Source of the DNA: Paenibacillus sp. JNUCC32
GTDB lineage: Bacteria; Bacillota; Bacilli; Paenibacillales; Paenibacillaceae
DNA: 64,000 bases
Assembly (NCBI RefSeq): GCF_014863545.1
Contig: NZ_CP062260.1
Span: forward strand, 2,790,001 to 2,854,000
Direction: 5' to 3'
Below are positions 27,316 through 59,986 of this stretch, piece after piece. Position numbers and translations under genes: made by a program. The first letter of the stretch is position 1. The number at the start of each line of letters is the position of its first letter. The notes beneath the pieces are model-generated. The model had not been told where the DNA came from. It saw only the letters and a list, made by a program, of their open reading frames with translations, and did not search any database.

Positions 27316-27840
27316 TCAAGATTTATTTACCTTGTCTTCTCCAAAATAAAACCCTTTAAGTTGTTGATCAAAGAAATCCCTTAAGTTTTCTTGATCGATT
27401 GTATAAATCATTTGCCTAGTCCATATATCTGTTCTTGTTATATAAATCTTTTCAAGATCATATTGGATTCTTATTTCTTTTCCGGTCTTTAATTTAAAAA
27501 CAATCCCTGCACTAATGCTGGTGTTTGATGGTATTTGTTTCAACGCTATACGATCTGAATCAGGTACAGAATTAATCCAATTTACAATATTATTAATTTC
27601 ATCCTGATTTAATTCAACGTCTATCCAATCGATATATGCACCTGATCCTTTTCTGGTGTATCGTGCTTTGGACATCTCCGTGCTGGAGATTTGTTTTACC
27701 TGAATTTCTTTATTTAAGTTTGACTGACTCATGAAACCATTCATATCACCAAGAACAAAATATAATGTCCCTATAACGAGTATGAGGACAATAAGTGTTC
27801 TTCTATTCTTTAGATTGGTTATAATCGCACTCTCCCCCAT
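27316..27840 (-). CDS. Cassette 33: membrane-anchored protein of unknown function
   Basis: The 174 residues include an N-terminal membrane anchor (about residues 13-31, RTLIVLILVIGTLYFVLG) and an outside domain with many charged residues ending DKVNKS. I start at ATG 27840; the longer open frame to 27990 is the attC site translated. This is the last cassette: no attC follows it, and its stop codon abuts the truncated chromosomal fragment. No family recognised. Confidence 0.65.
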   Translation of the reverse strand: MGESAIITNLKNRRTLIVLILVIGTLYFVLGDMNGFMSQSNLNKEIQVKQISSTEMSKARYTRKGSGAYIDWIDVELNQDEINNIVNWINSVPDSDRIALKQIPSNTSISAGIVFKLKTGKEIRIQYDLEKIYITRTDIWTRQMIYTIDQENLRDFFDQQLKGFYFGEDKVNKS

Positions 27841-27843
27841 GGC

Positions 27844-28000
27844 TAATAAAGTTGGTGTGTTCACGAACTCCACCACCATAAGGCCCGAAAGGCCGCGCCG
27901 CGATGCGGTTAGGTGGTGCGAATTTAGCCGGCAATTACTTCTCCGACTTCCCGCCTGGACCGAGGGGCGTATGCCCCGATGAGTGAACACATTGTTATTA
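27844..28000 (-). repeat. attC32 (left-most cassette recombination site)
   Basis: Plus strand: left core TAATAAA (decayed), inner box GTTCACG, inner stems including GGCCCGAAAGGCC, right box GTGAACAC and right core GTTATTA. Confidence 0.75.
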
Positions 28001-28029
28001 AGATATCAGCGCCTTCTTCGAATAAGTAT

Positions 28030-29073
28030 TCAACTTACTATGTCTCTTCTAATATTTCTTATATTGGGTTCAATTTGATCAAATCGATTTAAACAGTGGT
28101 TTCGAATCATTTCTAAGTCATTGATACTTTGAGACTCATCTTTATTCCTAAATAGAATATTCATAACCCAGTTAGATAGATTACGAAGATGTGCACGATA
28201 AGAGTAAAAGCGAATCAAGTCCAGATTAATCTGAATCTTTCGATCCAACTGTTTAATATAAGAAGATATAAAGATGTCGAAACTCGAACCAATATAGCCA
28301 AACAAATTATACTCAGGTGGTGCTATGATCACCGATTCCCAGTCTAAAAAGAACAACTGATTATTGTGATATATGATATTTCCACCCCACATATCACCGT
28401 GACACAAAACAAGTTGGCTAGCATTGATATGAACTGAATTCCGAATTTCTCTAACTAAGTTCATGTAAAAGAGAATTTGTTCTTTCTTTAATAAAACAAG
28501 CTTTCGTAGTGATTGATTTAAGTCATTGTTTAGATTTGATTTCTCAAGGATCGAAATACATCTCAAAAGATCAGATTCGAAAGTGACATCAAATGATTCC
28601 TTTGGTAATAAATTCTGATTCACGTGCGGAGTAATCTGTTCTAATGTAGCCACGGACTTTGCAATTCCTACAAGAATCTCTTCTGAGAAAGGATATGCCT
28701 CGGTCAAGGTCTCTCCAACTATAAAATTAAATAAAACTATAGTGATGTCTTGTAATTTAGTAAATAAACTCCCAAAGCAATTCTTTATTGGATGAGTCAT
28801 GTTTATAAACAACCCTTGATGATAAAGATCCCAAGTCAAAGGTAGGTAATAATGTAGTCGTCGTATTCCCTCTCTTTGTCTATCATTATGATGATCAAAT
28901 AACTTCAAGTAATATTGTTGTTCGTCAATACAATTTACTTTATAGGAATACGCCGAATCCCCGACCGGAATAAATTCAATATCCTTAATAAGAATTCCGT
29001 AGTTTTTTTGTATGAATAAAATAAGCTGTTCATCTTCGATTTTGAACTTACTTATCAAAAGTCTCACCACCAT
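28030..29073 (-). CDS. Cassette 32: aminoglycoside/choline phosphotransferase-like kinase
   Basis: The 347-residue APH-fold kinase has the catalytic loop LCHGDMWGGNI near residue 235 and the metal-binding FFLDWESVI near 255. The N-lobe carries KVNCIDEQQYYLKLFD with the ATP-contacting Lys. The start is uncertain: I use the ATG at 29073 (MVVRLLISK); the longer frame to 29184 translates attC31. Members phosphorylate small hydroxyl compounds, including some antibiotics. Substrate unknown; a role in resistance is only a possibility. Confidence 0.85.
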   Translation of the reverse strand: MVVRLLISKFKIEDEQLILFIQKNYGILIKDIEFIPVGDSAYSYKVNCIDEQQYYLKLFDHHNDRQREGIRRLHYYLPLTWDLYHQGLFINMTHPIKNCFGSLFTKLQDITIVLFNFIVGETLTEAYPFSEEILVGIAKSVATLEQITPHVNQNLLPKESFDVTFESDLLRCISILEKSNLNNDLNQSLRKLVLLKKEQILFYMNLVREIRNSVHINASQLVLCHGDMWGGNIIYHNNQLFFLDWESVIIAPPEYNLFGYIGSSFDIFISSYIKQLDRKIQINLDLIRFYSYRAHLRNLSNWVMNILFRNKDESQSINDLEMIRNHCLNRFDQIEPNIRNIRRDIVS

Positions 29074-29105
29074 ATGATTGAGGAATTGTGGTTTGCGCTG
29101 ATTTC

Positions 29106-29269
29106 CGATAACTTCTTTATATTCACGAACCCTCACTGGCTTAAGGGGCGAATACCCCGGGTCCGACGGACTTAGCCAGTGCAAGGTTGTCAGGTTGATC
29201 CCGCTCCCCTGAAATCCCTCATACCAGACCGAGAAACGAACGGTTCAATGCGTAAATATGGTGTTTTAT
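29106..29269 (-). repeat. attC31
   Basis: Left core CGATAAC, TATTCACGAAC box, inner GGCGAATACCCC-type stem, right arm GCGTAAATATGGT and core GTTTTAT. Intact in outline with a decayed right core. Confidence 0.8.
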
Positions 29270-29308
29270 TTGAAGGACTTGTCCTCCTCAACTTACTTTA
29301 CAATTCCT

Positions 29309-29734: not shown

Positions 29735-29777
29735 ATGATCTTCCTTTTTTATGTTTTTTAAGTTTCACATGTCTTTC

Positions 29778-29900: not shown

Positions 29901-29907
29901 ACGTTGC

Positions 29908-30360: not shown

Positions 30361-30426
30361 TGCTATATCTCCTTATGTGTACAATTTATTTATAGGAAAA
30401 AGTGAAATTTGGTTTTCGGGTATGTC

Positions 30427-30581
30427 ATATAACGTTAATGTATCTACGAACCCGAGAGGCTTATGGGGAACAACGACCGGGTCAACGAACATAGCCTCGT
30501 CTGCCTGACTTAACTTCTCCGAAATGCCTCGGGCAGATTAAGGAGCCGCAAGGGTGCACCACCGTGAATACGGTGTTACGT
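30427..30581 (-). repeat. attC29
   Basis: Left core ATATAAC, box GTATCTACGAACCC, inner GAGAGGCTTA / TAGCCTCG stem, right arm CCGTGAATACGGT and core GTTACGT. Confidence 0.85.
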
Positions 30582-30619
30582 GATGCCCAAAGTTCTATTC
30601 GATCGATCCACAAATTAAT

Positions 30620-31186: not shown

Positions 31187-31195
31187 ATAACCCTC

Positions 31196-31352
31196 CCTGA
31201 ACGTTCCCTTATCCACGTTGTCCAACCGACCAACGGGAGCGGCCGCGATGCGGTTAGTCGGTGCGGATGTGTCCGCTGAATTTGCTTCCCTGCCAATCGC
31301 TTCTCGCGGACCGAGGAGCTGTCAGGCTTGATGCGTGGATATGATGTTAGGT
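31196..31352 (-). repeat. attC28
   Basis: Left core CCTGAAC (altered), box TTATCCACG, long inner stem CCAACCGACCAACGGGAGCG, right arm GCGTGGATATGAT and core GTTAGGT. Its right core matches the left core of attC27 apart from one lost base. Confidence 0.85.
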
Positions 31353-31379
31353 GATGTCCCCCGCTTCCTGGATTAACAT

Positions 31380-32099: not shown

Positions 32100-32140
32100 A
32101 GAATCTCCTAACTATAAATGTTTTAAGCTCTTGGCGGATT

Positions 32141-33372: not shown

Positions 33373-33456
33373 ACGGGATAGCGTCCTTTCGCTCTGTTGT
33401 TCTGGTTAATGCATTTTTTACTATGAATCTAACTATTATCATCTCTCTGTTCTGTC

Positions 33457-33647
33457 GTATAACGTTCTTGTATTCACGACGTCGAGAGGCTTAAAGTACG
33501 CATCTGGAGAGGCGTAGCCTCCAACCAAACCGGCTGAGCGGAGCGCAGTTAGCCTCGCAGATGGGTCCGCCGAATTCTCTCCCCTGCCAATCTCATCCCG
33601 CAGACCGAGGAGCCGTCAGGCTCCGAAGCGTGGATATGATGATAAAT
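33457..33647 (-). repeat. attC26
   Basis: Left core GTATAAC, GTATTCACGACG box, long inner stems with GGAGCCGTCAGGCTCC, right arm AGCGTGGATATGAT and altered core GATAAAT. Confidence 0.8.
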
Positions 33648-33676
33648 GATGCCGGCGCATCTTCGAATTCCCCTCA

Positions 33677-34741: not shown

Positions 34742-34780
34742 TGCAGTCACCACCAGATAAAATATTAGTGCCTAGCTTTC

Positions 34781-34964
34781 AGATAGCGTATATGTATTCG
34801 CGAACCCGAGAACCATAAGGCCCGAAGGGCCGGTCGCGGCGCGGTTAGGTTCGCAGGGTTGTCCGCCAACGCTTCCTGTATCTCTGAAATCGCTCCGCAG
34901 TGAAATCCCTTCGCTCTTTGCGGACCAAGGGGCGAACGCCCGCTGCGCGAATATGGTGTTATGT
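34781..34964 (-). repeat. attC24
   Basis: Left core AGATAGC (one change), GTATTCGCGAAC box, inner GGCCCGAAGGGCC stem, right arm GCGCGAATATGGT and core GTTATGT, which equals the left core of attC23. Confidence 0.85.
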
Positions 34965-34998
34965 GATGTCTGCCTCATCTTCGAATAACTTTCAAAAA

Positions 34999-35430: not shown

Positions 35431-35461
35431 TCACATTCTCCTCTGTATTTAGGATGATTTC

Positions 35462-35604
35462 ACATAACGTTCCCGCATCTGTGACGCGACCCAGCCTTAG
35501 ATAGCTCTTATCTTAGGCTGGGTCGTGTGTTGTCTGAATTTTCGCCTATGAGCGTGCTTGCTTATGAAAAAACCAAGGGGCGGAGCTTAGATGCATGGTT
35601 TAGT
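35462..35604 (-). repeat. attC23
   Basis: Left core ACATAAC, inner stem ACCCAGCCTTAGATAGC / TCTTAGGCTGGGT, right arm TAGATGCATG and altered core GTTTAGT. Confidence 0.75.
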
Positions 35605-35753
35605 GATGTTACTGCCTTATCTGTAATTACATTCTCATAAATGTTTTACGGATATATATTGTTTCTTATGTATTCATTCTAGTTATTTATAGTATTTTAA
35701 TGGTATTTCATCATATCTTATATGTTATAATTTTCTAGTACAATATACGGCTT

Positions 35754-35985
35754 TAAGGGCGGTCGGCTAATCTCCCAGAAGGGAGGTGATGCCCATGGAG
35801 GTCAAAGATGCACTTTCCTTAATGTTCATGTTCGGCATGTTCATTCTGGCATTGCTTACCTACATGAAAAAGAAATAGACCGCCCTCGCTAAGGTAACGG
35901 TCTATTTCTCGACCTAACTCCTGTGGCCGACTGCTCTTTATGCAGTTATTGTGCTTTGGAGTCGTGTTCCAGCACGGCTCCTTAC
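35754..35985 (+). ncRNA. Type I toxin mRNA region with probable antisense RNA
   Basis: Around the 27-codon toxin ORF there is the leader GGCGGTCGGC...AGAAGGGAGGTGATGCCC, a hairpin GAAATAGACCG / CGGTCTATTTC just behind the stop, and an imperfect stem GAGTCGTG / CACGGCTC near 35960-35985. On the minus strand a TATACT-type -10 box near 36000 could start an antisense RNA across this region. Layout matches TxpA/RatA-like and holin-like type I systems; the RNA boundaries are inferred. Confidence 0.55.
35794..35877 (+). CDS. Holin-like type I toxin peptide, in cassette 23
   Basis: The 27-residue peptide starts MEVKDALSLMFMFGMFILAL and ends in a LTYMKKK tail: one membrane helix with a basic end, as in the putative holin-like toxin family of Bacillota. 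GGGAGGTGATG stands before the ATG, as usual for these genes. It is on the plus strand, opposite to almost all cassette genes, and lies between attC23 and the lipoprotein gene of the same cassette. Toxin-antitoxin pairs are known to stabilise large integron arrays. Confidence 0.8.
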
Positions 35986-36750: not shown

Positions 36751-36794
36751 AAATGATCTCCTTAAATATTTCTTTAATATTTACCGGAAATGGC

Positions 36795-36939
36795 GCATAA
36801 CGTTCTTGTATTGACGAAACGGCCCAGACTTAGATAACTCTTATCTTAGGTTGGCGCGTTTGTTGTCTGAACTTCTTCCATAATTATTCATCTGACAACC
36901 CAGGGGCGATAGCCCCACAGCGTGAATATGGTGTTATCT
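36795..36939 (-). repeat. attC22
   Basis: Left core GCATAAC, GTATTGACGAAACG box, inner CCCAGACTTAGATAAC stem, right arm AGCGTGAATATGGT and core GTTATCT, equal to the left core of attC21. Confidence 0.85.
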
Positions 36940-36952
36940 GATGGGATGCCTT

Positions 36953-37564: not shown

Positions 37565-37581
37565 TTATAAGCGTATCTTTC

Positions 37582-37748
37582 AGATAACGTTCAGGCATTC
37601 ACGAACCCATACTGCAGTAAGCGACCAACGGGAGCGGCCGCGATGCGGTTAGGCAGTGCAGGGTTGTCCACCTGTTCATCTTCCCTGAAAATCCTCGGGC
37701 AGACCAAGGGGCGCGACAGCGACCCGCAGCGTAAATGTTTTGTTATCG
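37582..37748 (-). repeat. attC21
   Basis: Left core AGATAAC, GGCATTCACGAACCC box, inner GACCAACGGGAGCG stem, right arm AGCGTAAATGTTTT and core GTTATCG. Confidence 0.85.
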
Positions 37749-37812
37749 GATGTCAATGCCTTCCTTGAACCTCTAAAAATCTTGGAGTCAGTTTCGCTTT
37801 TGTTTTTATATT

Positions 37813-38625: not shown

Positions 38626-38684
38626 GAAAACACCTTCTCTTAGTAGGTATTTATATTTGAGTATTTCAGATTTGCATTGATTTC

Positions 38685-38846
38685 AGATAACGTTCTTGTA
38701 TTCACGACGTCCTGGCCCCTTAGAGTCGCTGCTTATAGTTGTGAGGCTTGCCGAACACCTAATGCAGGACGTCCCGACGGGCTTAGGGGGCCGGATGTGG
38801 TCACTCGCTTCTGAGAGTGACCCCGAGCGTCAATATGGTGTTAGCC
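38685..38846 (-). repeat. attC20
   Basis: Left core AGATAAC, GTATTCACGACG box, inner GTCCTGGCCCCTTAGAG / TAGGGGGCC stem, right arm GAGCGTCAATATGGT and core GTTAGCC, equal to the left core of attC19. The core supplies the stop codon of the next gene. Confidence 0.88.
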
Positions 38847-39608
38847 GAGAGAAGTTCTGGAAGCAGCCATTGTATTTAAGGCGTTCTCAAAATAGCTATA
38901 TACTTCATCTGCATTTCCCAGAAACTCTTCAACAAATACATCACTATCCAAGTAACAAGCATACAGATACTCAACTAAAGCGGAGTCAATCTCGCAATAG
39001 TTTATTATGGCATTCTTCATCTCAATAATGTCATCTTGCCATACACCTGTATCTGTTAAAACCAAAGAGTATAATGCACGAATTAATCTCTTCGAATACC
39101 CTTTAATATATCTAGTTTTCATCGTGTGATCACTAGCAGTAGAAAGTGAACGACGTACACGATCTACTTCTTCCTTGGTCTCTGTATTTAAGCCTAGAAT
39201 GAACTCTGGAGAAATAATGATCGGTGGTACTTTTTCACCAATGTCATGACCATACATGCAAACACAAATGATCTTAACCCAAAAACCCCACTCATTCGGT
39301 TTACTTAATACATCGTCAATCGAGCAAATTATCGTATCAATCTTAGTTACTATTGGATATTCTTCCAAAAGCCTGTCTTTAATATTTGACAATCTTTCGT
39401 AATCAATATCTTTGGGATTTACACATACAATAGTAAAGTCTGCATCTGACTTAAAAGGTTTAGCAGTTCCTTTTGGAATCGAGCCACACATATAAATGCT
39501 ATGAATCTTTCCTTTAAATTCGGTAAGTATATGATTTATATACTTATCAACAAAATCCTTATATTCACTTTGTATTGCAATTCTATTTATAACTTTTTCT
39601 AATATCAT
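38841..39608 (-). CDS. Cassette 20: nucleotidyltransferase-domain protein (ANT/AadA-like fold)
   Basis: The 255-residue protein has a polymerase-beta-type nucleotidyltransferase motif: GSIPKGTAKPFKSDADFTIV near residues 42-62 (G-S...D-x-D), with a third acidic residue around KIDTIICSID. This fold includes aminoglycoside adenylyltransferases such as AadA, common in mobile integrons, but also other enzymes. Its TAA stop comes from the core of attC20. AGGAGG precedes the ATG. Confidence 0.85.
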   Translation of the reverse strand: MILEKVINRIAIQSEYKDFVDKYINHILTEFKGKIHSIYMCGSIPKGTAKPFKSDADFTIVCVNPKDIDYERLSNIKDRLLEEYPIVTKIDTIICSIDDVLSKPNEWGFWVKIICVCMYGHDIGEKVPPIIISPEFILGLNTETKEEVDRVRRSLSTASDHTMKTRYIKGYSKRLIRALYSLVLTDTGVWQDDIIEMKNAIINYCEIDSALVEYLYACYLDSDVFVEEFLGNADEVYSYFENALNTMAASRTSLG

Positions 39609-39639
39609 ATAGACTCCTCCTAAACTAAGAACTTCTTTC

Positions 39640-39831
39640 GGCTAACGTTATTGTATTCACGAACACTCACTGCCTTAAACAACCGTAGGGAGTGGCGCGA
39701 CCCGGTTAGGCTGTGCAGGGTTGTCCGGCTGAGTTAGCTTCTCTGCAAATGAAATGACTCTTTGATTCCACTTCTTCTACCTCGGCCGGACCAAGGAGCG
39801 ATAGCGACGCAGCGTGAATACCATGTTAGCT
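39640..39831 (-). repeat. attC19
   Basis: Left core GGCTAAC, GTATTCACGAAC box, inner CACTGCCTTAAAC / GGTTAGGCTGTGC stem, right arm AGCGTGAATACCAT and core GTTAGCT. Confidence 0.88.
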
Positions 39832-39852
39832 GATGGATCGGCCCTCTTCGAA

Positions 39853-40401: not shown

Positions 40402-40450
40402 AAAATGCTCTCCCATCAATGTTTTCTATTATGATTTTTGCCAATCTTTC

Positions 40451-40614
40451 AGATAACGTCGTTGTATTCGCGAACCCGAGTGGCTTAAGCGGCAATCGGG
40501 AGCGGGTGGTTCCGCCACTTTGCTTTGCAGGGTTGTCTGCCTGACCAACTCCTCCGAAAAGCCTCGAGCTGACCAAGGACCTACCAGGTCCGCAGCGTGG
40601 ATACGGTGTTAGCT
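40451..40614 (-). repeat. attC18
   Basis: Left core AGATAAC, GTATTCGCGAACCCG box, inner GGCTTAAGCGG stem, right arm AGCGTGGATACGGT and core GTTAGCT, equal to the left core of attC17. Confidence 0.88.
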
Positions 40615-40645
40615 GATGAAATTGCCTTCCTCGAATTACTTACTA

Positions 40646-40981: not shown

Positions 40982-41057
40982 AACAAATGTTTGCACGTTG
41001 GCTCTTCCTTTATCTTTTGATTTTTCATTTTACAAGAATTTTCTATGCAATGGTTTC

Positions 41058-41218
41058 AGCTAACGTTCTTGTATCTACAAACCCGAGAGGCTTAAAGGGG
41101 CGCCAGCGACTGGGCCCGACGAACTTAGCCTCGCCAGGGTTGTTCGCTGATTCCGCTTCTCTGTAAATGCTTCTTTTGAACCAAAGGCGCAGCCTGAAGT
41201 GTAGATACATTGTTATAG
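41058..41218 (-). repeat. attC17
   Basis: Left core AGCTAAC, GTATCTACAAACCC box, inner GAGAGGCTTAAAGG / TTAGCCTCG stem, right arm GTGTAGATACAT and core GTTATAG, equal to the left core of attC16. Confidence 0.88.
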
Positions 41219-41272
41219 GATGTTAGCACTTTCTTCGAAAGACTTACACTATTCAATCCCCCGTTAATTTGG

Positions 41273-41602: not shown

Positions 41603-41725
41603 TTCTACTCCTCCTCCAATATATATTCTTATACTTCAATTTGCTCTTTATAAGCTAAACTACACAGTTAGTTTAAATCAACTAATAATGAATTGCTTTT
41701 GATTTTTCGTTATTGCGCTGATTTC

Positions 41726-41887
41726 CTATAACGTTTCTGTATCTACGAACCCGAGAAGCTAAGTCCGTCGGACCCGATCGGGTCCAACGGACTTAGCCTC
41801 GAAGGTGTTGTCTGCTGAGTTTCATCTGCGAAATACCTCTTGCAGACCAAGGACCGAAAGGCACGAAGCGTAGATATGATGTTATCT
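41726..41887 (-). repeat. attC16
   Basis: Left core CTATAAC, GTATCTACGAACCC box, inner AAGTCCGTCGGACC / GGTCCAACGGACTT stem, right arm AGCGTAGATATGAT and core GTTATCT. Confidence 0.88.
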
Positions 41888-41911
41888 GATGTTCTTGCCT
41901 TCTTCGAATTA

Positions 41912-42523: not shown

Positions 42524-42562
42524 AAGCCCTCCTAAAACGTATTAACCGCACGCAAGAATTTC

Positions 42563-42724
42563 CGATAACGTTTCCGTATTCACGAACCCTCACTGGCTTA
42601 AGGGGCGAAAGCCCCGGGTCCAACGGACTTAGCCAGTGCAGGGTTGTCTGCTGACTCCTCTTCCCCGAAAAGCCTCTAGCAGACCAAGGGCTGTTAGGCG
42701 CGCAGCGTGAATACTTTGTTATCC
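42563..42724 (-). repeat. attC15
   Basis: Left core CGATAAC, GTATTCACGAACCC box, inner CACTGGCTTAAGGGGCG / TTAGCCAGTG stem, right arm AGCGTGAATACTTT and core GTTATCC, equal to the left core of attC14. The core supplies the stop of cassette 15. Confidence 0.88.
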
Positions 42725-43279
42725 GATGCTACCGGCCCTCTTCGATGCGCTTGTTAAATTTTTATAATCTTCAATTAATTTATTGTATTCATATCTTTCT
42801 TCTATGGGATAATCATTTCCAACTATATTTATGTACCTATTTAATTCTCTTAATTCAATAAAAAATAGTTTTTGATTCCGTATTCTATCAGAAGTGAAAT
42901 AAAACCCTTCTACAATTTCCTCATCATTCAGTGAAACTAGAAAAATGTAACTATGTATTATCTGATTATATAAGTAGCTTGCCTTCATACTTTCATTTGA
43001 TGGTGTATCTAAATCATATAGCTCTTGAATTCTATGCCAATTAAATCTTGTAACATCTTTTCTGTTTTTAAACGATTTAACCTTTAATTGTATTTGTTCA
43101 GTGTCATGGGATAATTTCTTGGCTTCAACTAGCTTTCTAACTGAATACATTACGATCATTATGTCTTTCTCAAACTCCACTAACATATCATCATCGTATG
43201 CTGTTGATAAATACACTTTATTAATCTTGTCAGAAAGTTTTAAAAGATCTTCTTTCCAATAACTTGATTCCCATATCAT
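42719..43279 (-). CDS. Cassette 15: unknown helical protein
   Basis: This 186-residue protein is highly charged and mostly helical (LSDKINKVYLSTAYDDDMLV, DKDIMIVMYSVRKLVEAKKL and so on). No membrane segment or motif I recognise. Its TAA stop lies inside the right core of attC15. GGGAG precedes the ATG. Bounded by matching cores (GGATAAC), so a complete cassette. Confidence 0.7.
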   Translation of the reverse strand: MIWESSYWKEDLLKLSDKINKVYLSTAYDDDMLVEFEKDIMIVMYSVRKLVEAKKLSHDTEQIQLKVKSFKNRKDVTRFNWHRIQELYDLDTPSNESMKASYLYNQIIHSYIFLVSLNDEEIVEGFYFTSDRIRNQKLFFIELRELNRYINIVGNDYPIEERYEYNKLIEDYKNLTSASKRAGSIG

Positions 43280-43341
43280 TTGGAGGACTCCCTTTTAATA
43301 GATTTGATATTTTTTTAAAAATTAACTCTTACGGTGGTTTC

Positions 43342-43465
43342 GGATAACGTTCCTGTATTCACGACGTCCGACGAAGTCGGATGTGTCTGCTGAAAATACT
43401 CCTACGAAATCCATGCAGCAGACCAAGGCTCCATTAGGAGCCGCAGCCTGAATATTTTGTTTTGT
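43342..43465 (-). repeat. attC14
   Basis: Left core GGATAAC, GTATTCACGACG box, short inner TCCGACGAAGTCGGA stem, right arm AGCCTGAATATTTT and altered core GTTTTGT. Confidence 0.82.
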
Positions 43466-43486
43466 GATGTCAGCATCTTCTTCGAA

Positions 43487-43984: not shown

Positions 43985-44022
43985 TCATACCACTCTTTCA
44001 ATCTTTTATTTATGCTGATTTC

Positions 44023-44118
44023 ACATAACGTTCCTGTATTCACGACCCGACGTATGTCGGGTGTCCGGCAAATGCCGGACCCAGGGCGTATGCCCGATGC
44101 GTGAATATCATGTTATAG
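44023..44118 (-). repeat. attC13 (short form)
   Basis: Only 96 nt: left core ACATAAC, GTATTCACGACCC box, inner GACGTATGTCGGG and CCGGCAAATGCCGG stems, right arm GCGTGAATATCAT and core GTTATAG, equal to the left core of attC12. Confidence 0.88.
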
Positions 44119-44195
44119 GATGTCAGCATCTTCATCGAATTCGCTCACTTTTATTTATCTTTTCAACTATTAAAATGCTTTTGATACATAATCAC

Positions 44196-44510: not shown

Positions 44511-44561
44511 AATTTGTTTTATACCTTCTTCAAGTTTTTATTAAGGGGTCCTGCTGATTTC

Positions 44562-44720
44562 CTATAACGTTTAGGTATCTACGAACCCGAGAGGCTGAAG
44601 GCGCGAACGCGCCGGGTCCCCCGGGCTTAGCCTCGCAGGGTTGTCTGCCTGATTTGCTTCCTCGAGAAGCCTCTGACAGACCAAGGAGCGTAGTGACGCG
44701 GCGTAGATATGATGTTAGGT
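44562..44720 (-). repeat. attC12
   Basis: Left core CTATAAC, GTATCTACGAACCC box, inner GAGAGGCTGAAGGC / TTAGCCTCG stem, right arm GCGTAGATATGAT and core GTTAGGT, equal to the left core of attC11. Confidence 0.88.
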
Positions 44721-44752
44721 GATGTTACGGACTTCTTTGAACTTCTTACAAA

Positions 44753-45241: not shown

Positions 45242-45282
45242 TTTGAATCAGTCCTTTATTTAATTGTGTTTCCCGTAATTTC

Positions 45283-45443
45283 ACCTAACGTTTGTGTGTT
45301 CCCGACGCCTCACCGACTTAAGCCTGAAGGGCAGCCGCGACGCGGTTAGTTGGTGCAGGTGTGTCTGACAGAATCCTCTTCTTCGAAATTCCTCGGGCAG
45401 ACCAAGGTTCCGTAGGAACCGCAGTGGGAACATGGTGTTATGT
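45283..45443 (-). repeat. attC11
   Basis: Left core ACCTAAC, GTGTTCCCGACG box, inner CACCGACTTAAG / GGTTAGTTGGTGC stem, right arm CAGTGGGAACATGGT and core GTTATGT, equal to the left core of attC10. Confidence 0.88.
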
Positions 45444-45476
45444 GAAGTTCCTGACTTCCTGAATATACTTTCAAAA

Positions 45477-45893: not shown

Positions 45894-45937
45894 GGATTTC
45901 ACCTGATTTCTATGAGTTTAGTTCTTTCAGGAATTTC

Positions 45938-46082
45938 ACATAACGTTCAGGTATTCGCGAGGTCCATCCCTCTTAGATAGCTCCTATCTTAGGGGAATGG
46001 ATGTGTCCGACTGTTCCTGCTTCTCGAAATGCTCTGTCGGACCGAGGGCCAAATGGCTCGATGCGCGAATATGTTGTTATAC
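45938..46082 (-). repeat. attC10
   Basis: Left core ACATAAC, GTATTCGCGAGG box, inner CCATCCCTCTTAGATAGC / GGGGAATGG stem, right arm TGCGCGAATATGTT and core GTTATAC. Confidence 0.85.
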
Positions 46083-46154
46083 GGTGTTGGGGCCATCCTG
46101 AGTTACAAAAGAAATTAAGGACAGTATGAATTAATTACTGTCCTTATATACTAA

Positions 46155-48690: not shown

Positions 48691-48788
48691 TGTGATCCCC
48701 CGTTTTGAAGTTTGGTTCCCATCTTCCTTATTTTACCTTAGCCTTCAACATTTTTCGATTCTTTTATATTTTCTTGTGCCCCAATTTC

Positions 48789-48957
48789 ATATAACGTTCC
48801 GTATTCACGACGTCCCACCGACTTAAGGACCGCCAGGGTCCGGCCGCGATGCGGTTAGTCGGTGCGGATTGTGTCCGCCTGATTCTACTCCCCTGTCAAT
48901 CTCCTTCTGGCGGACCTAGGAGCCGCAAGGCTCCGATGCGTGGATATAATGTTAGGC
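48789..48957 (-). repeat. attC9
   Basis: Left core ATATAAC, GTATTCACGACG box, inner CCACCGACTTAAGG / GGTTAGTCGGTG stem, GGAGCCGCAAGGCTCC hairpin, right arm TGCGTGGATATAAT and core GTTAGGC. Confidence 0.85.
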
Positions 48958-48961
48958 GATG

Positions 48962-49195
48962 TCAACTCTTCATTGAATCTCCATTAAACAATTCTTCAGT
49001 TCTTCTAACGTATAGCTCTCCATACTTATAGTTCCTCAAACTTCTCAAGAGTTCATTCTTGTGAAACTTATTCTCAAAAAAGATAACCCAAATTGCAAGA
49101 AACTTTTGTATTCTCTTTTTAAGTTTTGTCCTTTTAATTATCTGTTCATAAATACTTACGTATTGTAAAAAGAATAACAAAGGAAAATGCAACAT
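48962..49195 (-). CDS. Cassette 9: small basic protein, unknown
   Basis: The 77-residue frame (MLHFPLLFFLQYVSIYEQII then a Lys/Arg-rich middle) has a hydrophobic start and basic tail. It lies close to attC9 and downstream of the next small membrane gene. Whether it is really translated is uncertain. Confidence 0.4.
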   Translation of the reverse strand: MLHFPLLFFLQYVSIYEQIIKRTKLKKRIQKFLAIWVIFFENKFHKNELLRSLRNYKYGELYVRRTEELFNGDSMKS

Positions 49196-49466: not shown

Positions 49467-49783
49467 TTTAAAGGTTTCCTTTATAATCTTCCAAATACTT
49501 TCTTCGAGATACTTAGTAGATACTCGAAAAATCAGGGGATATAACGCAGAAAAAATCCAAACTACATAGTCCTTAATTACACTATCTTCAAGTACATTAA
49601 AGGTGCCGCGACGCGGTTAGGTATTTTGTAATTAAGTATTTTGACGTTAATATCATTTACCAAGATTTTATAATGTTGATTTATTTTTTTATGCCTTTTA
49701 ATAATTTGCTCTTCTATAAAAATCACTTTTTCCATATATATTTCTTTATGCAATTATTGTTTTTTCAGCTTTACCTCGATTTC
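49467..49783 (-). other. Gene-free AT-rich stretch with an attC inner fragment
   Basis: No ORF of note. GTGCCGCGACGCGGTTAGG at 49602-49621 is the inner segment of the long attC sites (compare GCCGCGATGCGGTTAG in attC1 and attC2) without outer arms: a relic of a deleted or rearranged site inside cassette 9. Confidence 0.5.
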
Positions 49784-49899
49784 TGATAACGTTTCTGTAT
49801 TCATGAACCCCGAAGGGGTTGTCTGTTGAAATCCCTCTTTGAGATTCTTCCCGCAGACCAAGGCTCCAAAGGAGCCGCAGCGTGAATATTATGTTATAA
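49784..49899 (-). repeat. attC8
   Basis: Left core TGATAAC, GTATTCATGAACC box, inner CCCCGAAGGGGTT stem, GGCTCCAAAGGAGCC hairpin, right arm AGCGTGAATATTAT and core GTTATAA. Confidence 0.85.
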
Positions 49900-49925
49900 G
49901 ATGTCCCTAACTTCTTTGTAATCTC

Positions 49926-50765: not shown

Positions 50766-50805
50766 TTTGTATTCTCCTTGTTTACTAAATATTATTAGGG
50801 ATTTC

Positions 50806-50920
50806 TAATAACGTTTCTGTATTCATGAACCCCAAAGGGGTTGTCTGCTGAAATTTCTCTCCGAAATCCATCCGCAGACCAAGGCTCCGAAGGAGCCGCA
50901 GCGTGAATATTATGTTAGGT
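50806..50920 (-). repeat. attC7
   Basis: Left core TAATAAC, GTATTCATGAACC box, inner CCCCAAAGGGGTT stem, GGCTCCGAAGGAGCC hairpin, right arm AGCGTGAATATTAT and core GTTAGGT. Near twin of attC8. Confidence 0.88.
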
Positions 50921-50948
50921 GAAGTAACTTATCATCTTGAACTACCCT

Positions 50949-52157: not shown

Positions 52158-52191
52158 GTTATCTACTCCTCTTTCTTATTTATGTTATTTC

Positions 52192-52288
52192 ACCTAAACG
52201 TTCCCGTATTCACGACCCAGAGCATGCTGGGTGTCCGGCGAATGCCGGACCAAGGGCGCATGCCCGCAGCGTGAATATATTGTTAGGT
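52192..52288 (-). repeat. attC6 (short form)
   Basis: 97 nt: left core ACCTAAAC (one base added), GTATTCACGACCC box, inner AGCATGCTGGG and CCGGCGAATGCCGG stems, right arm AGCGTGAATATAT and core GTTAGGT. Confidence 0.85.
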
Positions 52289-52313
52289 GATGTCATTTCA
52301 TTCATGTTTTTAA

Positions 52314-54110
52314 CTATTGTTTTAAGGACTTAAGATATAGTGTTTTATAGATACAGCATAAGTGTAAAGTTAACCACCATAAATATGTTAGTTCGCTTGA
52401 GAAAAAGTTCTCATAGCTCATCAATCCATGAGCTATCTTATTTCTCAGATTACTCCCAGATCTTTCAACTAAAAGTCCTTGTAAGTCAAAGGCTATATCT
52501 TCAGAAATGAGCTCTTCAAACTTTGGAACAAATAAAAGTGAGTTTAAATTTTTTTCATCTTGAACTCCTTCAGAATCAAGACTAGAAACAATCTCTCCAG
52601 ATTCGTAAAGAATATGCCGAATTGAATTTTCAAGTTGTGGGATCAACAAATGTGCAGATACTAAAAATTCTCCATAAAACCCCTTTAATAGGCCTTCTGC
52701 AAATATAATTTCTCTTCCATATGGAACAAAGGGATTATTTTCGACTAAATCAAAAACGTCTTTCAAACGGATACAATGTTCGAAAATTATTTTTCTTCGA
52801 GCAGGCTCCACTAAACCTTGAGTATGGATGAGGTGATAATATTGAGCATTTTTATACATCTCTACTTTAATTGCTGCCTCAACCTCTTCTTGATCTCCTG
52901 ATATCATAGAAGGATGACGTTTAATTATTTTTCCACTTTCATTTATAGACACAGAAGAAAAAAAATTTTGAAGAAAGTATTTTCCTGAGTTTTTTTCAAC
53001 TTGCGCACGTAGAGCATTCTTTTGAGGCACTCCTCCTATTAAGCCCAATTGAAAAATGGCCTTCTGTTTGTCTTTACCTTCTACTAGCCTTTCTGCCTCT
53101 TCTATATAGTTGCTAATATCTATTTTTTCAGAGGAAATGCTTTGTAGCTCATCTACTGACTCTTCTTGGTAAGTTAATAAAAGTCTATGTAGTTCTTCAA
53201 TACGTTCGTTTTTTCCTCTTACTCTTCTATGTGCCTCAATAGCGCTTAATATTTGAGAAGATGCAAGCATATAACTTGGATTCTCGCGTGCGAGGATTGA
53301 TTTTGCTTCTTTCACGTAGGTTTCAGCATAGTTCTTTAACTTAGCGTGCTGATTTTCTTTATCTTTTTTAAGATGGTACCATTTTGAACATATGCCCCAA
53401 TAATTTCTCGCTCTACGAAAATCCAACTCTTCTTCTGCTTTAATAGCAATTTTCTCTGATAACATAGAGTATTTTTCTGGATCACCTATACCATTCTCAA
53501 TTAGTAATTCCATTAATCTAGCCGAAAGAAATGAAGAGTCTTCTCCATTAATCCTATTGAGTGCTTCTTCAATTACTTTAACAGAAGCCTCAAACGGTTC
53601 GTTTTTTCGGCCTAGTATAATTGCAATTTGTAATGCTCTTTCGATTCTCTCTATACAACTAGTCCAATGTATTGGATCAAACAAAGTCCAAAATGATTCA
53701 ATATAAGAATAAACAGCATTCTTAGCTTGAAGATGCTGACGCTTCCCAACCCATAGAATATCAGCTATGCGTGATTTTAGTTCTGAGTCTTTTACAAGTT
53801 CGACAATCATTAGAAGTGCTTCATAATCATTCTCAGTAAGATCTTCTATACTTGGACTTCTTGACTCTCTAAGAATGAGAGCTGGCTCAAATGGACATTC
53901 ATAGTTTTCTAAATCTAAATGAAATGAGCAGATCATTCCTAAGAGCTTTAAAATTTCACTATGTGTAATATTTTTATTTTTTTCTGCTTCATCAGAAGCT
54001 TTATAAAAGAGCGAGTAATAAAAATGGCATTCTTTCTCAACCGGGCCACTTATAGCCTCATCCCAATCGATACCTAGAACATCTTTAGTTTCGACTTTTA
54101 TATTTAACAT
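52314..54110 (-). CDS. Cassette 6: DUF4209-like protein with C-terminal HEPN motif
   Basis: The 598-residue helical protein resembles DUF4209 proteins: a long repeat-like middle and a C-terminal segment GFYGEFLVSAHLLIPQLENS ... SNLRNKIAHGLMSYENFF, with RNKIAH as an RN-x3-H motif. AAAGGAG precedes the ATG. DUF4209 has been linked to HEPN RNases; the substrate is unknown. It is the largest intact cassette gene. Confidence 0.72.
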   Translation of the reverse strand: MLNIKVETKDVLGIDWDEAISGPVEKECHFYYSLFYKASDEAEKNKNITHSEILKLLGMICSFHLDLENYECPFEPALILRESRSPSIEDLTENDYEALLMIVELVKDSELKSRIADILWVGKRQHLQAKNAVYSYIESFWTLFDPIHWTSCIERIERALQIAIILGRKNEPFEASVKVIEEALNRINGEDSSFLSARLMELLIENGIGDPEKYSMLSEKIAIKAEEELDFRRARNYWGICSKWYHLKKDKENQHAKLKNYAETYVKEAKSILARENPSYMLASSQILSAIEAHRRVRGKNERIEELHRLLLTYQEESVDELQSISSEKIDISNYIEEAERLVEGKDKQKAIFQLGLIGGVPQKNALRAQVEKNSGKYFLQNFFSSVSINESGKIIKRHPSMISGDQEEVEAAIKVEMYKNAQYYHLIHTQGLVEPARRKIIFEHCIRLKDVFDLVENNPFVPYGREIIFAEGLLKGFYGEFLVSAHLLIPQLENSIRHILYESGEIVSSLDSEGVQDEKNLNSLLFVPKFEELISEDIAFDLQGLLVERSGSNLRNKIAHGLMSYENFFSSELTYLWWLTLHLCCIYKTLYLKSLKQ

Positions 54111-54150
54111 AAAAATACTCCTTTAATTTTTAGCATTGTGAAATGATTTC

Positions 54151-54246
54151 ATCTAACGTTTCTATATTCACGACCCAGCATATGCTGGGTGTCCGGCGAA
54201 TGCCGGACCAAGGACGTATGTCCGCAGCGTGAATATTATGTATCTG
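54151..54246 (-). repeat. attC5 (short form)
   Basis: 96 nt: left core ATCTAAC, ATATTCACGACCC box, inner AGCATATGCTGGG and CCGGCGAATGCCGG stems, right arm AGCGTGAATATTAT and altered core GTATCTG. Confidence 0.8.
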
Positions 54247-54281
54247 TTGTAGCCGCTTCTTAGAATAATCACTCATAGGCT

Positions 54282-54827: not shown

Positions 54828-54861
54828 TCTATATCTCCTACCTTCGTATTTAGGCTATTTC

Positions 54862-54959
54862 AGCTAACGTTCCTGTATTCACGACCCTAGCGAATGCTAG
54901 GGTGTCCGGCGAATGCCGGACCAAGGGCGTATGCCCGCAGCGTGAATATTATGTTAAGT
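54862..54959 (-). repeat. attC4 (short form)
   Basis: 98 nt: left core AGCTAAC, GTATTCACGACCC box, inner AGCGAATGCTAGGG and CCGGCGAATGCCGG stems, right arm AGCGTGAATATTAT and core GTTAAGT. Confidence 0.88.
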
Positions 54960-55127
54960 GTTGCTTCTGACTTCCTGAGGTACCTTAAACTTATTCTTAA
55001 TTTATCGATTTACTTCCTTTCAAATTTAATTTGCTCATCTTTTCAATTTAGAAGTTTTAATCTGCTTCGTGTGCCCTAGCATAGACCAGCAAACATTACT
55101 TGTTTAATTCTTAAACTTAAAATATTA

Positions 55128-55730: not shown

Positions 55731-56461
55731 ATTTCCTCCAATCCTTCAGCCAAGTAATCTACTATTTTTTTCAATGCATATTCATCTACCCACTTATTCA
55801 GTAATACCCGGCCTTTAGAATTTAGTTTTATTAAAACACTATAATATTCAAATTTAACTTCGGTGATTTGTGCCTCATATAGATCTATACCTAAATCATT
55901 TATATTTTTTAAGAATCCATCTCGCAATTTAAATGTAATTTCCATTTTACTGGCGTTAATGTTTTCAAGCCTTGCATCTTGAAAATACGTAATCTCTTTA
56001 AAACTAAGATTATTTTCTTTTAACAATTGCTTGAAATATTCATTCGGTATATCAATAGGAAGCATTGCTTCGTTAATTTTTTTATAATCATAAATAGGTA
56101 TAATTTTCCTCAATAAATTAATATTTAGCACATTGGATATAAACAAAATTATCTTATACTCTCTAAAGTAGAGCAGCTCAATTTCTTCATCTACTACTTC
56201 TCCCTCACTTATATGCTTATATTGTTTTTCAGGATAATTATTAATGTATTCTATACCGCTCTTATCTTGCAGTTTTCGATACTTGATTAACAGACTATCA
56301 TAAAGCTTAGACTCCTTTGTTTCTATATCTGTTATGGAAATGTATTCTACGCTACTCATTTGGTTTTTATCAAAAAGTGCAGCTATTTCATGAAACGAAG
56401 TTAGACATCTGAAAATCATGAATTTCTTATACATGTTTATAAGATCATCTCCCTTTAGCAT
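55727..56461 (-). CDS. Cassette 4, first gene: unknown cytosolic protein
   Basis: The 244-residue protein starts MLKGDDLINMYKKFMIFRCL; an internal ATG at 56434 with AAGGGAG upstream is an alternative start. The body is mixed alpha/beta with no membrane helix or known motif. Four-base overlap with the following membrane-anchored gene makes a rare two-gene cassette. Confidence 0.68.
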   Translation of the reverse strand: MLKGDDLINMYKKFMIFRCLTSFHEIAALFDKNQMSSVEYISITDIETKESKLYDSLLIKYRKLQDKSGIEYINNYPEKQYKHISEGEVVDEEIELLYFREYKIILFISNVLNINLLRKIIPIYDYKKINEAMLPIDIPNEYFKQLLKENNLSFKEITYFQDARLENINASKMEITFKLRDGFLKNINDLGIDLYEAQITEVKFEYYSVLIKLNSKGRVLLNKWVDEYALKKIVDYLAEGLEEI

Positions 56462-56646
56462 TATTGATCTTTTCTATACTTCTTTGTTATCATATCAAAA
56501 TCGATAGCTTAAACACGCCATCAAATAATGAAGAATTAATTTTTGATTCTTTCTTGATTAATTTAGAATCCACTTCTCTGTTCTCTTTCCAAAAGTAAGC
56601 ACTCATCAGTTTTAAATTTGTATTACAGTTTTCTTTCAGAAGTTGC

Positions 56647-56769
56647 GCTTAACGTTCTTGTGTTCATGACGTCCGACGTAGTCGGATGTGTCTGCTGAGT
56701 TGCCTCTCTGAATTCCTTCTCGCAGACCAAGGCTCCGTTAGGAGCCGCAGCTTGAATATTATGTTATCT
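56647..56769 (-). repeat. attC3
   Basis: Left core GCTTAAC, GTGTTCATGACG box, inner TCCGACGTAGTCGGA stem, GGCTCCGTTAGGAGCC hairpin, right arm AGCTTGAATATTAT and core GTTATCT, equal to the left core of attC2. Confidence 0.88.
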
Positions 56770-56793
56770 GAAGTTACTCCCGCTGTGATTAAC

Positions 56794-57561: not shown

Positions 57562-57600
57562 ACAAATCACTCTCTTTCTTTATATCCTTTAAGTAATTTC

Positions 57601-57770
57601 AGATAACGTTCCCGTATCCACGACGTCCCACCGACTTAAGGCTCCGTAAGGAGCCGCCGCGATGCGGTTAGTCGGTGCGGATGTGTCCGCCTGATTCTGC
57701 TCCCCTGCCAATTCCCGTCGGGCGGACCGAAGGAGCCGTAAGGCTCCGAAGCGTGGATATGATGTTATAG
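57601..57770 (-). repeat. attC2
   Basis: Left core AGATAAC, GTATCCACGACG box, inner CCACCGACTTAAGG / GGTTAGTCGGTG stem, GGAGCCGTAAGGCTCC hairpin, right arm AGCGTGGATATGAT and core GTTATAG, equal to the left core of attC1. Confidence 0.9.
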
Positions 57771-57791
57771 GATGTTCGGGCCTTCCTCGAG

Positions 57792-58331: not shown

Positions 58332-58426
58332 CAGATCAATCCTTTTATTCGATGTCTCTATTCGAGCATTACAAAGATCACCAGTTGCCTGGCTCAGTTT
58401 GTTTATATATGTTTTGCCCAAATTTC

Positions 58427-58595
58427 CTATAACGTTCCCGTATTCACGACGTCCCACCGACTTAAGGCCCCCCAGGGTCTGCGGCCGCGATGCGGTTAGT
58501 CGGTGCGGATGTGTCCGCTGAATCTACTCCTCTGCCGATCACATCTCACTGACCGAGGAGCCACCAGGCTCCGATGCGTGAATATTATGTTACAT
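58427..58595 (-). repeat. attC1 (first site from the integrase)
   Basis: Left core CTATAAC, GTATTCACGACG box, inner CCACCGACTTAAGG / GGTTAGTCGGTG stem, right arm TGCGTGAATATTAT and core GTTACAT, equal to the core ATGTAAC of the attI-like site. Confidence 0.9.
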
Positions 58596-58615
58596 GATGT
58601 CAGTGCCCTCTCGAA

Positions 58616-59149
58616 TTAGCCCACAAAATTATCTTTAATTAATTTCATTTCGATATTATTCCATGTGCGTCCTGCTTTATCTTGATATACATTCTCCTTA
58701 CGATTCATCTTCTCAAAACCAATATTCTCGTAACATCTAATTGCCGATATATTAAAATCAAATACGTTTAAATTTATTGCCTTTAATCTGAATTGTTCAA
58801 ATCCAATCTTTACAATTTCCTTTAATGCCTTGCTTCCAATTCCTCTTCCTCGATTTTGCGTTTCACCAATTAAAAATCTTCCAATTACAGCCTCTTCAAG
58901 ATCTTTATTAAACCTGCAAAGTTGTATTGTGCCAACAAATTGCTTTGCCTCTTTGATCCTATATATAAAAACATCCGATTCAATCGTATTTATTCCTTTA
59001 CTGTAATGTGCTTTCAATTGTTCTATGGTTAATGGATAGGAATAAGTTAAACCTGCCCATTGTACGATGAAATCTTCATCTTTTTGATTTATCCATTCTA
59101 TGATCGTTGTAAAATCTTGTTCTGATAATGCTTCTAAATAAACCTTCAT
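58616..59149 (-). CDS. Cassette 1: GNAT acetyltransferase (RimJ/RimL type)
   Basis: The 177-residue protein starts MKVYLEALSEQDFTTIIEWI at ATG 59149 with GGAGGATC upstream. The acetyl-CoA loop is NRGRGIGSKALKEIVKI and the end NISAIRCYENIGFEKMNRKE, as in protein or small-molecule N-acetyltransferases. As the cassette nearest the attI-like site it should be the latest arrival and, in known integrons, the best expressed. Its two boundary cores match 7/7 (ATGTAAC). Confidence 0.92.
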   Translation of the reverse strand: MKVYLEALSEQDFTTIIEWINQKDEDFIVQWAGLTYSYPLTIEQLKAHYSKGINTIESDVFIYRIKEAKQFVGTIQLCRFNKDLEEAVIGRFLIGETQNRGRGIGSKALKEIVKIGFEQFRLKAINLNVFDFNISAIRCYENIGFEKMNRKENVYQDKAGRTWNNIEMKLIKDNFVG

Positions 59150-59183
59150 TGAATGATCCTCCAAAATAAACAGCATTGATTTC

Positions 59184-59249
59184 ATGTAACGTCTTTTTCA
59201 CGAACTTCGCAAAAATATCATCTCTTGAGGTGTTTACGAAGTTCGTGAA
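59184..59249 (-). other. attI-like primary recombination site
   Basis: On the coding (minus) strand CGAAGTTCGTGAA, a spacer AAAGAC, then the core GTTACAT. This box-spacer-core order equals the L'-R' half of the attC sites (CGTGAATA, spacer CAAGAAC, GTT core). A second perfect copy of the 13-base TTCACGAACTTCG lies inverted at 59237-59249 versus 59197-59209. There is no opposing core, so it is a single, non-attC site between cassette 1 and the recombinase gene, where attI should be. Confidence 0.72.
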
Positions 59250-59269
59250 CACTCCTTCACCAACCATGT

Positions 59270-59986
59270 TTACGATTTTTCTCCCTGAATCTCCACTTCC
59301 AATTGATCTAACGGACTTTTAATCCTTCTTATGTCCTTCACACTCACATGTGTGTACCTTTCGGTGGTGCGTACACTTTGATGACCGAGCAACTCTTGAA
59401 TGAAGCGAATGTCAATTCCACCTTCCAACAGGTGGGTAGCGAATGAATGGCGTAAGGCGTGAATACTAACCTTTTTCTGGATTCCAGAGGCAGTACGTGC
59501 TTGTTCGAACACTTTTTGAACCGTTCGTTCCGTTATATGGCGCTCTGGGTGTTGACCTGGGAACATCCATTTCTCGGACTTTTCTTGTTGTAAATACGGT
59601 TGAACAATATCCATAGCTGTATCGGATAATAGCGTAAGACGATCCTTTCGACCTTTTCCTTGAGAAACTCGAAGCGTTTTTCGCTCGAAGTCAATGTCTT
59701 GAGTTTTCAACCGGACCACTTCACCTACCCGTAATCCTGAGGAATAGGTAAGGTATAGGATCGCACGATGTTTTAAATTATCGAGTGCTTTTAAGATCAA
59801 CATCACTTCTTTCATCGATAACACATTCGGCAACTTCTTTTCTTTCTTAGGGCGAACATAAGAGACTGATTCCTCATGCAATAGTACTTTTTGAGCATAG
59901 AATTTGATCGCGCTGAGCGCTTGATTAACATAGGAATGGGAACATTTCCTATGAAGTAAGTACAAGGAATAACTCTGAATGTACAA
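59270..59986 (-). CDS. Tyrosine recombinase of the cassette array, N-terminally short
   Basis: The 238 residues start at a TTG with no ribosome binding site; an in-frame TAA closes the frame about 15 codons upstream. Catalytic residues are all present: Arg in SSGLRVGEV (86), Lys in QGKGRKDR (111), HALRH (176-180), LLGH (202) and Tyr in TERYTHV (211). The end RRIKSPLDQL is close to the RSPLDAL of integron integrases. The extra IntI helix between the Lys region and HxxR is absent, as in Xer-type relatives. Only the last helices of the core-binding domain remain, about 60-90 residues short of a full recombinase. It probably moved the cassettes; whether it still works is open. It points toward the array, unlike the usual divergent intI. 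Confidence 0.85.
   Translation of the reverse strand: MYIQSYSLYLLHRKCSHSYVNQALSAIKFYAQKVLLHEESVSYVRPKKEKKLPNVLSMKEVMLILKALDNLKHRAILYLTYSSGLRVGEVVRLKTQDIDFERKTLRVSQGKGRKDRLTLLSDTAMDIVQPYLQQEKSEKWMFPGQHPERHITERTVQKVFEQARTASGIQKKVSIHALRHSFATHLLEGGIDIRFIQELLGHQSVRTTERYTHVSVKDIRRIKSPLDQLEVEIQGEKS

Follow-up and report, generated by a model that had tools for sequence, protein, structure and literature searches.

Organization of the locus

The window, i.e., the whole 64,000-nt stretch of DNA analysed here, corresponds to positions 2,790,001-2,854,000 of the 7.0-Mb genome of Paenibacillus sp. JNUCC32 and contains what is very probably a chromosomal integron. About 31 kb of minus-strand genes with palindromic sites between them is bounded by a cation-efflux gene and a MraY-like gene. 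The cation-efflux (CDF) gene (26208..27137, plus strand; PF01545, E 8.7e-48), which adjoins the MraY-like gene in relatives, forms the distal chromosomal flank, and the MraY-like gene (60241..61200, plus strand; TIGR00445, 226 bits at a cut-off of 192.05) forms the integrase-side flank. A tyrosine recombinase gene, the putative integron integrase, was found at 59270..60022 on the minus strand (250-aa open frame; PF00589, E 1.2e-45). It is followed by an attI-like site (59180..59256, minus strand) and then by the cassettes.

The first 28 attC-type sites were pulled out with hand-set anchors, and the covariance model R1 was built from them. With R1, the attC search proposed along with an earlier, sequence-only reading of the window was run and gave 29 sites in 27840-58601, namely the 28 training sites (by construction) and one more at 35458-35610. 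All 29 share one orientation. Numbered from the integrase side, all on the minus strand and with R1 scores in bits, they are: site 1, 58423..58601 (143.8); 2, 57597..57776 (144.1); 3, 56643..56775 (102.1); 4, 54858..54965 (87.3); 5, 54147..54252 (74.9); 6, 52188..52294 (83.9); 7, 50802..50926 (105.1); 8, 49780..49905 (106.0); 9, 48785..48963 (136.2); 10, 45934..46088 (108.8); 11, 45279..45449; 12, 44558..44726 (128.8); 13, 44019..44124 (86.5); 14, 43338..43471 (110.1); 15, 42559..42730 (150.5); 16, 41722..41893 (133.9); 17, 41054..41224 (127.7); 18, 40447..40620 (125.4); 19, 39636..39837 (132.6); 20, 38681..38852 (58.1); 21, 37578..37754 (144.4); 22, 36791..36945; 23, outside the training set, 35458..35610 (46.1); 24, 34777..34970 (114.4); 25, 33453..33653 (114); 26, 31192..31358 (113.4); 27, 30423..30587 (98.7); 28, 29102..29275; and 29, the distal end of the array, 27840..28007 (93.3). 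Sites 4, 5, 6 and 13 are compact, while sites 11, 22 and 28 were characterized by R1 together with comparison to other genomes (see below).

Three more half-sites were recognized by eye at about 29770, 32125 and 34150. The sequence-only reading had counted 33 cassettes, and the 29 sites together with the three half-sites come close to that number. The imperfect palindrome with AAC and GTT boxes that it placed after each unit is present along the run. Its description of minus-strand, mostly single-gene units also holds, apart from a BsrG-type locus on the plus strand and the unit 55128-56461, which has two frames.

Structure of the attC-type sites

In gene sense, each site consists of R'' (TCAnnTAAC), L'' (TATTCACG), a terminal hairpin part, L' (CGTGAATA) and R' (GTTAnnTGA), with a total length of 106-202 nt. 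The R-L spacers are unequal (4 versus 7 nt in the alignment, 6 in one row). The pairing scheme scored here, which comprises the R and L stems and two hairpins of the terminal part, was named from the sequences by the analyst. Of its cells, 91.4% were paired, compared with 83.3% in shuffles, none of 500 reaching the observed value, and slid versions of the scheme gave 29-42%. Changes on both sides were found at 14 of the 24 stem pairs.

The R' box of IntI-type attC sites has the consensus GTTRRRY. Counted by eye, it fits 3 of 28 sites here, the box being mostly GTTA followed by T or G. According to excerpts of PMC2727003, the R''-L'' arm of IntI-type attC sites contains two or three extrahelical bases; in the present alignment the 8-bp L stem, which is only the L part of the site, has no bulge.

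Cassette ends and the attI-like site

A circular cassette that opens in the GTT box should have a start (TTAnnTGA) complementary to the R'' at the opposite end of that cassette and not to the R'' of the same site. All six bases compared were complementary between the two ends of 10 of 27 cassettes, versus 0 of 28 comparisons within one site. Summed over own ends, the matches came to 121; permutation gave a mean of 95.4 (sd 4.2) and reached 121 in 0 of 100,000 rounds, and same-site end pairing lay at the permuted mean (51,518 of 100,000 as high). As in integrons, the cassette ends are complementary within the cassette; comparison with a shared cassette of another genome (see below) places the boundary within the AACGTTA box, though not at a single bond.

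The same test was applied to independent arrays outside the window's genome, at 16 loci that include three of a single genome (G004). Own-end matches numbered 113 of 159 and same-site matches 17 of 176, with a permuted mean of 20.6 and a maximum of 40 in 10,000 rounds. By locus, they ranged from 13/13 in Cohnella lupini and 12/13 in Cohnella endophytica to 1/2 in L014 and 0/4 in L075. This count omits the window, loci with fewer than three sites (L013 and L024 by script; L089, L091 and L094 by hand), the clusters L085-L088 of the window's own genome, the weak matches in Clostridia and in L016, any match truncated by the end of a locus, a single match on the opposite strand and the two weakest in L092; cassette pairs with boxes not ending in AAC or at least 4 kb apart were dropped. 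In a Vallitalea record (L080, Clostridia), the own-end match spans 13 bases (9.3 versus 5.0, permutation p 1.2e-4).

The attI-like site contains a crossover box, GTTACATGA, at 59190-59182 with adjoining inverted CGAAGTTCG/CGAACTTCG elements, and relatives have a similar core. The box is read as attI-like because it is an exact reverse-complement match to the R'' of the first cassette, and so the attI-like array end seen by the sequence-only reading is borne out. At 19 of 20 loci, the stretch from the integrase end to the first attC contains a box that agrees with the R'' of the first cassette, perfectly at 15 loci and with a single mismatch at the others. It should be noted that L024 and L089 are evidently one genome, that the boxes of L030 and L082 resemble attC ends and that none was found in L015; L007 and L008, whose contigs stop soon past the integrase, were skipped. 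The shared core is roughly GCGAAGTTCGyrgAAaAGACG^TTAnnTGAaAT. Judged by these matches, the integrase-adjacent site is attI-like in the integron sense.

The integrase

A tyrosine recombinase gene in cis is a further integron feature of the locus, although it is truncated in the window. The protein covers positions 124-363 of the 365 of the family model, so that the first ~123 positions are gone and the catalytic part is complete. No second copy was found in the same genome at E<=1e-50. Among 60 genomes searched, eight (G004, G008, G016, G017, G039, G049, G054 and G057) have a full-length, unbroken integrase, and the frame is also broken in the relatives L011, L014 and L015. Since the N-terminal third is lost, the window's copy is probably not self-acting. 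The working gene-capture platform suggested by the sequence-only reading is unsupported for this copy, given the missing positions and the lack of a second copy at that threshold.

The full-length proteins consist of a ~80-residue N-terminal domain, a SAM-like domain and the catalytic domain. The N-terminal domain is predicted to be similar to XPB damage-recognition, UvsW or HARP domains; among nine proteins, Pfam HARP gave a single weak match (E 0.047).

The distance between the KGxKDR and LRHSFA motifs was 74 residues (one 76) in 13 rows of the Bacillota class, 77-84 in Xer rows and 115 in the eight IntI rows covering this stretch (L004 is without frame in this alignment). The window's integrase belongs to the Bacillota class and lacks the IntI additional domain. 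Both the class and IntI1 have a C-terminal SPLD motif, which is not found in the four Xer rows compared. With the IntI family model TIGR02249 (cut-off 265 bits), the window's protein scored 182.4 bits and its relatives 188.9-213.2, and the match to both this model and the Vibrio cholerae integrase structure 2a3v was split. TIGR02249 exceeded its cut-off in none of the 60 genomes, but this is uninformative, as no control rang. With NF040815 (cut-off 220 bits), titled 'site-specific tyrosine recombinase/integron integrase', the window's protein scored 196.2 and its relatives 222.5 (L010), 221.2 (L019), 236.9 (L020), 220.7 (L032) and 206.5 (L008). Several database entries are likewise named. The best fold match of a full-length model was 2a3v (E 2.7e-15), with the XerA structure 5hxy close (1.3e-14).

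In a tree of 32 rows, built without L005, L006 and P0327, the IntI rows formed one group (100/99), the Xer rows another (100/99) and the Bacillota class a third, weak one (64/45; 87% of bootstrap trees), the deep branching order being unresolved. A Methylomonas protein (L097) considered as an IntI row was dropped, as it is without the IntI insert and its gene adjoins an IS91 transposase gene; IntI1 was used instead.

Distribution of sites and integrase

In 69 of 100 genomes of the genus, attC sites were matched at E<=1e-6 (up to 27 candidates were scored in each), and 29 of these have at least 20 matches. The integrase was found at E<=1e-80 in 21 of the 100. All 21 also have attC sites (4 to 27 matches among the candidates scored) versus 48 of the 79 without integrase, a co-occurrence with a Fisher p of 1.5e-4 when kinship is not controlled. 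The 48 integrase-less genomes that keep sites, some with at least 20, suggest frequent integrase loss with arrays retained. Of the 60 genomes searched, 17 have the integrase at E<=1e-80; attC sites accompany it in 16, and the exception, G045, has a stop-broken integrase and no attC sites.

Across the Bacillota, 29 of 398 genomes, representing 25 of 266 genera, have the integrase. Of the same 398 genomes, with the six best candidates scored in each, eight were matched by R1 at E<=1e-6, and four of these eight, including the genome of the window, belong to the same family as the window; R1 is tuned to Paenibacillaceae, and Clostridia sites score weakly. One distant match, in G399, lies 1.5 kb from the integrase of that genome.

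R1 was also searched against the window and 36 of 77 integrase loci. In 13 of the 36 (L009-L011, L013-L015, L017, L021, L024, L030, L033, L075 and L082; one site in L013, two in L024), strong sites lie downstream of the integrase and on its strand. Repeated motifs of the same kind were found in L080, L028, L023 and L016, and no clear array was seen beside the Bacillota integrases L019, L020, L027 and L031. The records L022, L025 and L026 stop within ~0.7 kb downstream and say little on arrays.

L016 and L018, labelled Dehalococcoidia, carry 57% identical integrase genes with a broken frame, for which mislabelling or transfer is possible; in L016, the opposite strand also carries sites that share the core motif. 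A Chryseobacterium plasmid (L098) encodes a full-length integrase relative (41% identical) followed by mostly same-strand genes, with four near-identical ~180-bp palindromic elements at 9116-9300, 11211-11390, 13592 onward and 16661 onward. This may perhaps be a Bacteroidota counterpart.

In the window's own genome, R1 gave eight matches outside the array, six of them at E<=0.01. The sequence-only reading had set against itself an ordinary dispersed repeat occurring elsewhere without neighbouring cassettes. Matches do occur elsewhere, but the ones inspected in detail are arranged in small groups that resemble cassettes. These groups (L085-L088; C1:720286-722450, 740900-741003, 2272462-2274287, 2290046-2290183 and 2295302-2295500) bracket genes where read. 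Two of them have attI-like boxes upstream (L087:1965 and L088:3454), and one own-end match is 6/6.

Probable cassette movement between genomes

The flanking genes, 33.1 kb apart in the window, are ~230, 340 and 370 bp apart in three relatives (empty site) and ~2.1 kb apart in a fourth (G004), which has its own integron at another chromosomal place. Paenibacillus glucanolyticus (L015) shares two cassettes with the window, a NUDIX-gene cassette at site 28 (93.3% identity) and a GNAT-gene cassette at site 11 (96.0%), in reversed order relative to the integrase. Between its two bordering AACGTTA boxes, the latter is almost the same in both genomes, and beyond them the sequences diverge. The core flank shared by the two genomes is 78% identical, and cassettes of 93-96% identity in changed order beside such a flank point to fairly recent movement.

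Stretches of the array also occur in Cohnella mopanensis (89%), Gorillibacterium timonense (83%; the CPT-like gene 36953-37564, adjoining site 22) and P. lactis (86% and 89%). Cassettes are common to Paenibacillus, Cohnella and Gorillibacterium. The comparison of cassette order between relatives, suggested earlier as a check, gave variable content and order, and the constant order that would speak against an integron did not appear.

Cassette and neighbouring genes

A Pfam match at E<=1e-3 was obtained for 18 of the 32 array proteins scanned, including acetyltransferases, NUDIX hydrolases, phosphotransferases, a methyltransferase, HD proteins, phosphatases and others. A BsrG-type type I toxin-antitoxin locus lies within a cassette at 35739..35980 on the plus strand, antisense to the array (Rfam RF01412, 85.2 bits, gathering 55); the P. 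lactis array (L033) holds the 86% and 89% copies of it. Ten proteins were scanned with PADLOC, giving matches to the candidate defence proteins PDC-S39 and PD-Lambda-3_A. The former is a cassette gene at 52314..54110 on the minus strand, encoding a candidate phage-defence protein (DUF7380/DUF4209 by Pfam; PADLOC E 7.9e-228). A 787-aa cassette protein (46155-48518, minus strand) had no Pfam or PADLOC match, and a GGLGKT P-loop was recognized in it by eye. Outside the array, the genes 61295-62263 (minus strand) and 62923-63849 (plus strand) are phosphotransferase-like and score far under the cut-offs of the aminoglycoside/macrolide phosphotransferase families.

Interpretation of the locus

With high probability, the locus represents a distinct Bacillota class of chromosomal integron with a non-IntI tyrosine recombinase, its own integrase copy being truncated. 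The integron-type cassette array proposed by the sequence-only reading is supported by the cassette-end test, the attI-like end and the variable cassette content and order. The element has the integron features that were tested and has neither the IntI integrase features nor the IntI-type R' consensus.

We suggest the following mechanism. Cassettes would be inserted, excised as circles and reshuffled by the non-IntI tyrosine recombinase within the AACGTTA box. Known integrons are cut at G^TT, and by analogy the cut would fall between G and TT. The recombinase may act on attC folded as a single strand, and new cassettes would enter at attI. Recognition of the folded site may be helped by the N-terminal domain of the full-length relatives and not by an IntI additional domain. 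The window's copy, because it is missing the N-terminal domain and part of the SAM-like domain, would no longer recombine alone. Two folding results weigh against the stem pairing named for the attC sites: RNAalifold alone predicted zero pairs on a gappy MAFFT alignment of them, and in free folds the L stem was formed by 20 of the 28 top strands and by 18 of the 28 bottom strands. We see an even chance that the Bacillota class solved the problem of the folded attC through a HARP/XPB-like N-terminal reader without the IntI additional domain, either as a parallel invention or as an older state from which IntI arose.

A second explanation concerns present activity and not the identity of the element. 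The cassettes may once have been mobile, with the locus now plain chromosomal DNA, a dead relic similar to clusters of attC sites lacking integron integrases (CALIN). The truncated gene is the only integrase copy found at E<=1e-50, the frames of L011, L014 and L015 are broken too, and many genomes of the genus hold sites without integrase. The movement deduced from the P. glucanolyticus comparison argues against a relic, and we regard the two possibilities as evenly balanced.

An ordinary IntI-type integron acquired from Gram-negative bacteria would account for the attC/attI layout, the gene content, the cassette boundaries and the SPLD motif common with IntI1. Nevertheless, the additional domain is missing even in intact full-length relatives (74 versus 115 residues), the TIGR02249 scores of 182-213 bits stay below 265, and the class does not group with the eight IntI rows, which are a clade by themselves. 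We rejected this very unlikely explanation on these three grounds.

Xer/dif-type mobile modules driven by host XerC/XerD were also considered, as the integrase is XerA/XerC/XerD-like. Since dif sites are short and two-arm, folded palindromes of 106-202 nt with a single crossover box, together with a specific integrase adjoining the array in the relatives named above, make such modules extremely unlikely. Dispersed palindromic repeats, whether repetitive extragenic palindromes/bacterial interspersed mosaic elements (REP/BIME-like) or other hairpins, lying between genes by chance would explain the eight matches elsewhere in the genome (two of them weak), but were rejected as scarcely credible by the own-end test, in which ends match within the unit between two sites and not within one palindrome, as well as by the common orientation of the 29 array sites and by the gene-bracketing outside sites with their 6/6 match and attI-like boxes.

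Comparison with known integrons and recombinases

The additional domain of IntI is reportedly necessary for activity, going by the title of a 2001 work of Messier and Roy. It is described as unique to integron integrases and served as a search profile in the relevant passages of PMC8352920, and it also defines these enzymes in those of PMC9229058. If our interpretation is true, a large Bacillota class without this domain could explain why domain-based surveys miss such integrons. It would also suggest that cassette capture through folded DNA needs no IntI additional domain, and the origin of integrons would become testable by comparing two independent, or ancestral and derived, solutions. Integrons are described as a Gram-negative tool in the abstract of PMC6393395. 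Our literature search of open-licence papers, without preprints, found no description of Paenibacillus or Cohnella chromosomal integrons.

The V. cholerae superintegron (IntIA and V. cholerae repeats, VCR) is alike in its large sedentary array with AAC/GTT boxes. It carries toxin-antitoxin and defence cassettes. The long branched terminal structure of VCR attC sites, as given in part of PMC2727003, is a further likeness. In contrast to V. cholerae, the integrase here is without the additional domain and has an extra N-terminal domain in the full-length relatives, and the generally known consensus GTTRRRY fits by eye only 3 of 28 R' boxes. The chromosomal integrons of Treponema, according to excerpts of PMC3607928, share the co-directional layout and the retention of attC in a species that lost intI; unlike here, where the integrase is of another class, theirs is treated as intI.

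By sequence, the closest profile and PDB relatives of the integrase are the XerA-type archaeal recombinases (NF040815; PDB 4a8e and 5hxy), although the NF040815 match leaves the N-terminal domain of the full-length relatives uncovered. We know of no cassette arrays associated with XerA-type recombinases. An integron in the Bacillota is also found in Limnochorda pilosa, the sole complete Firmicutes one in IntegronFinder 2.0 according to excerpts of PMC9024848. In the same excerpts, Firmicutes integrons are extremely rare, with a few CALIN in different Firmicutes genera and Paenibacillus not among the names. This rarity contrasts with the attC-type sites found here in 69 of 100 genomes of one genus.

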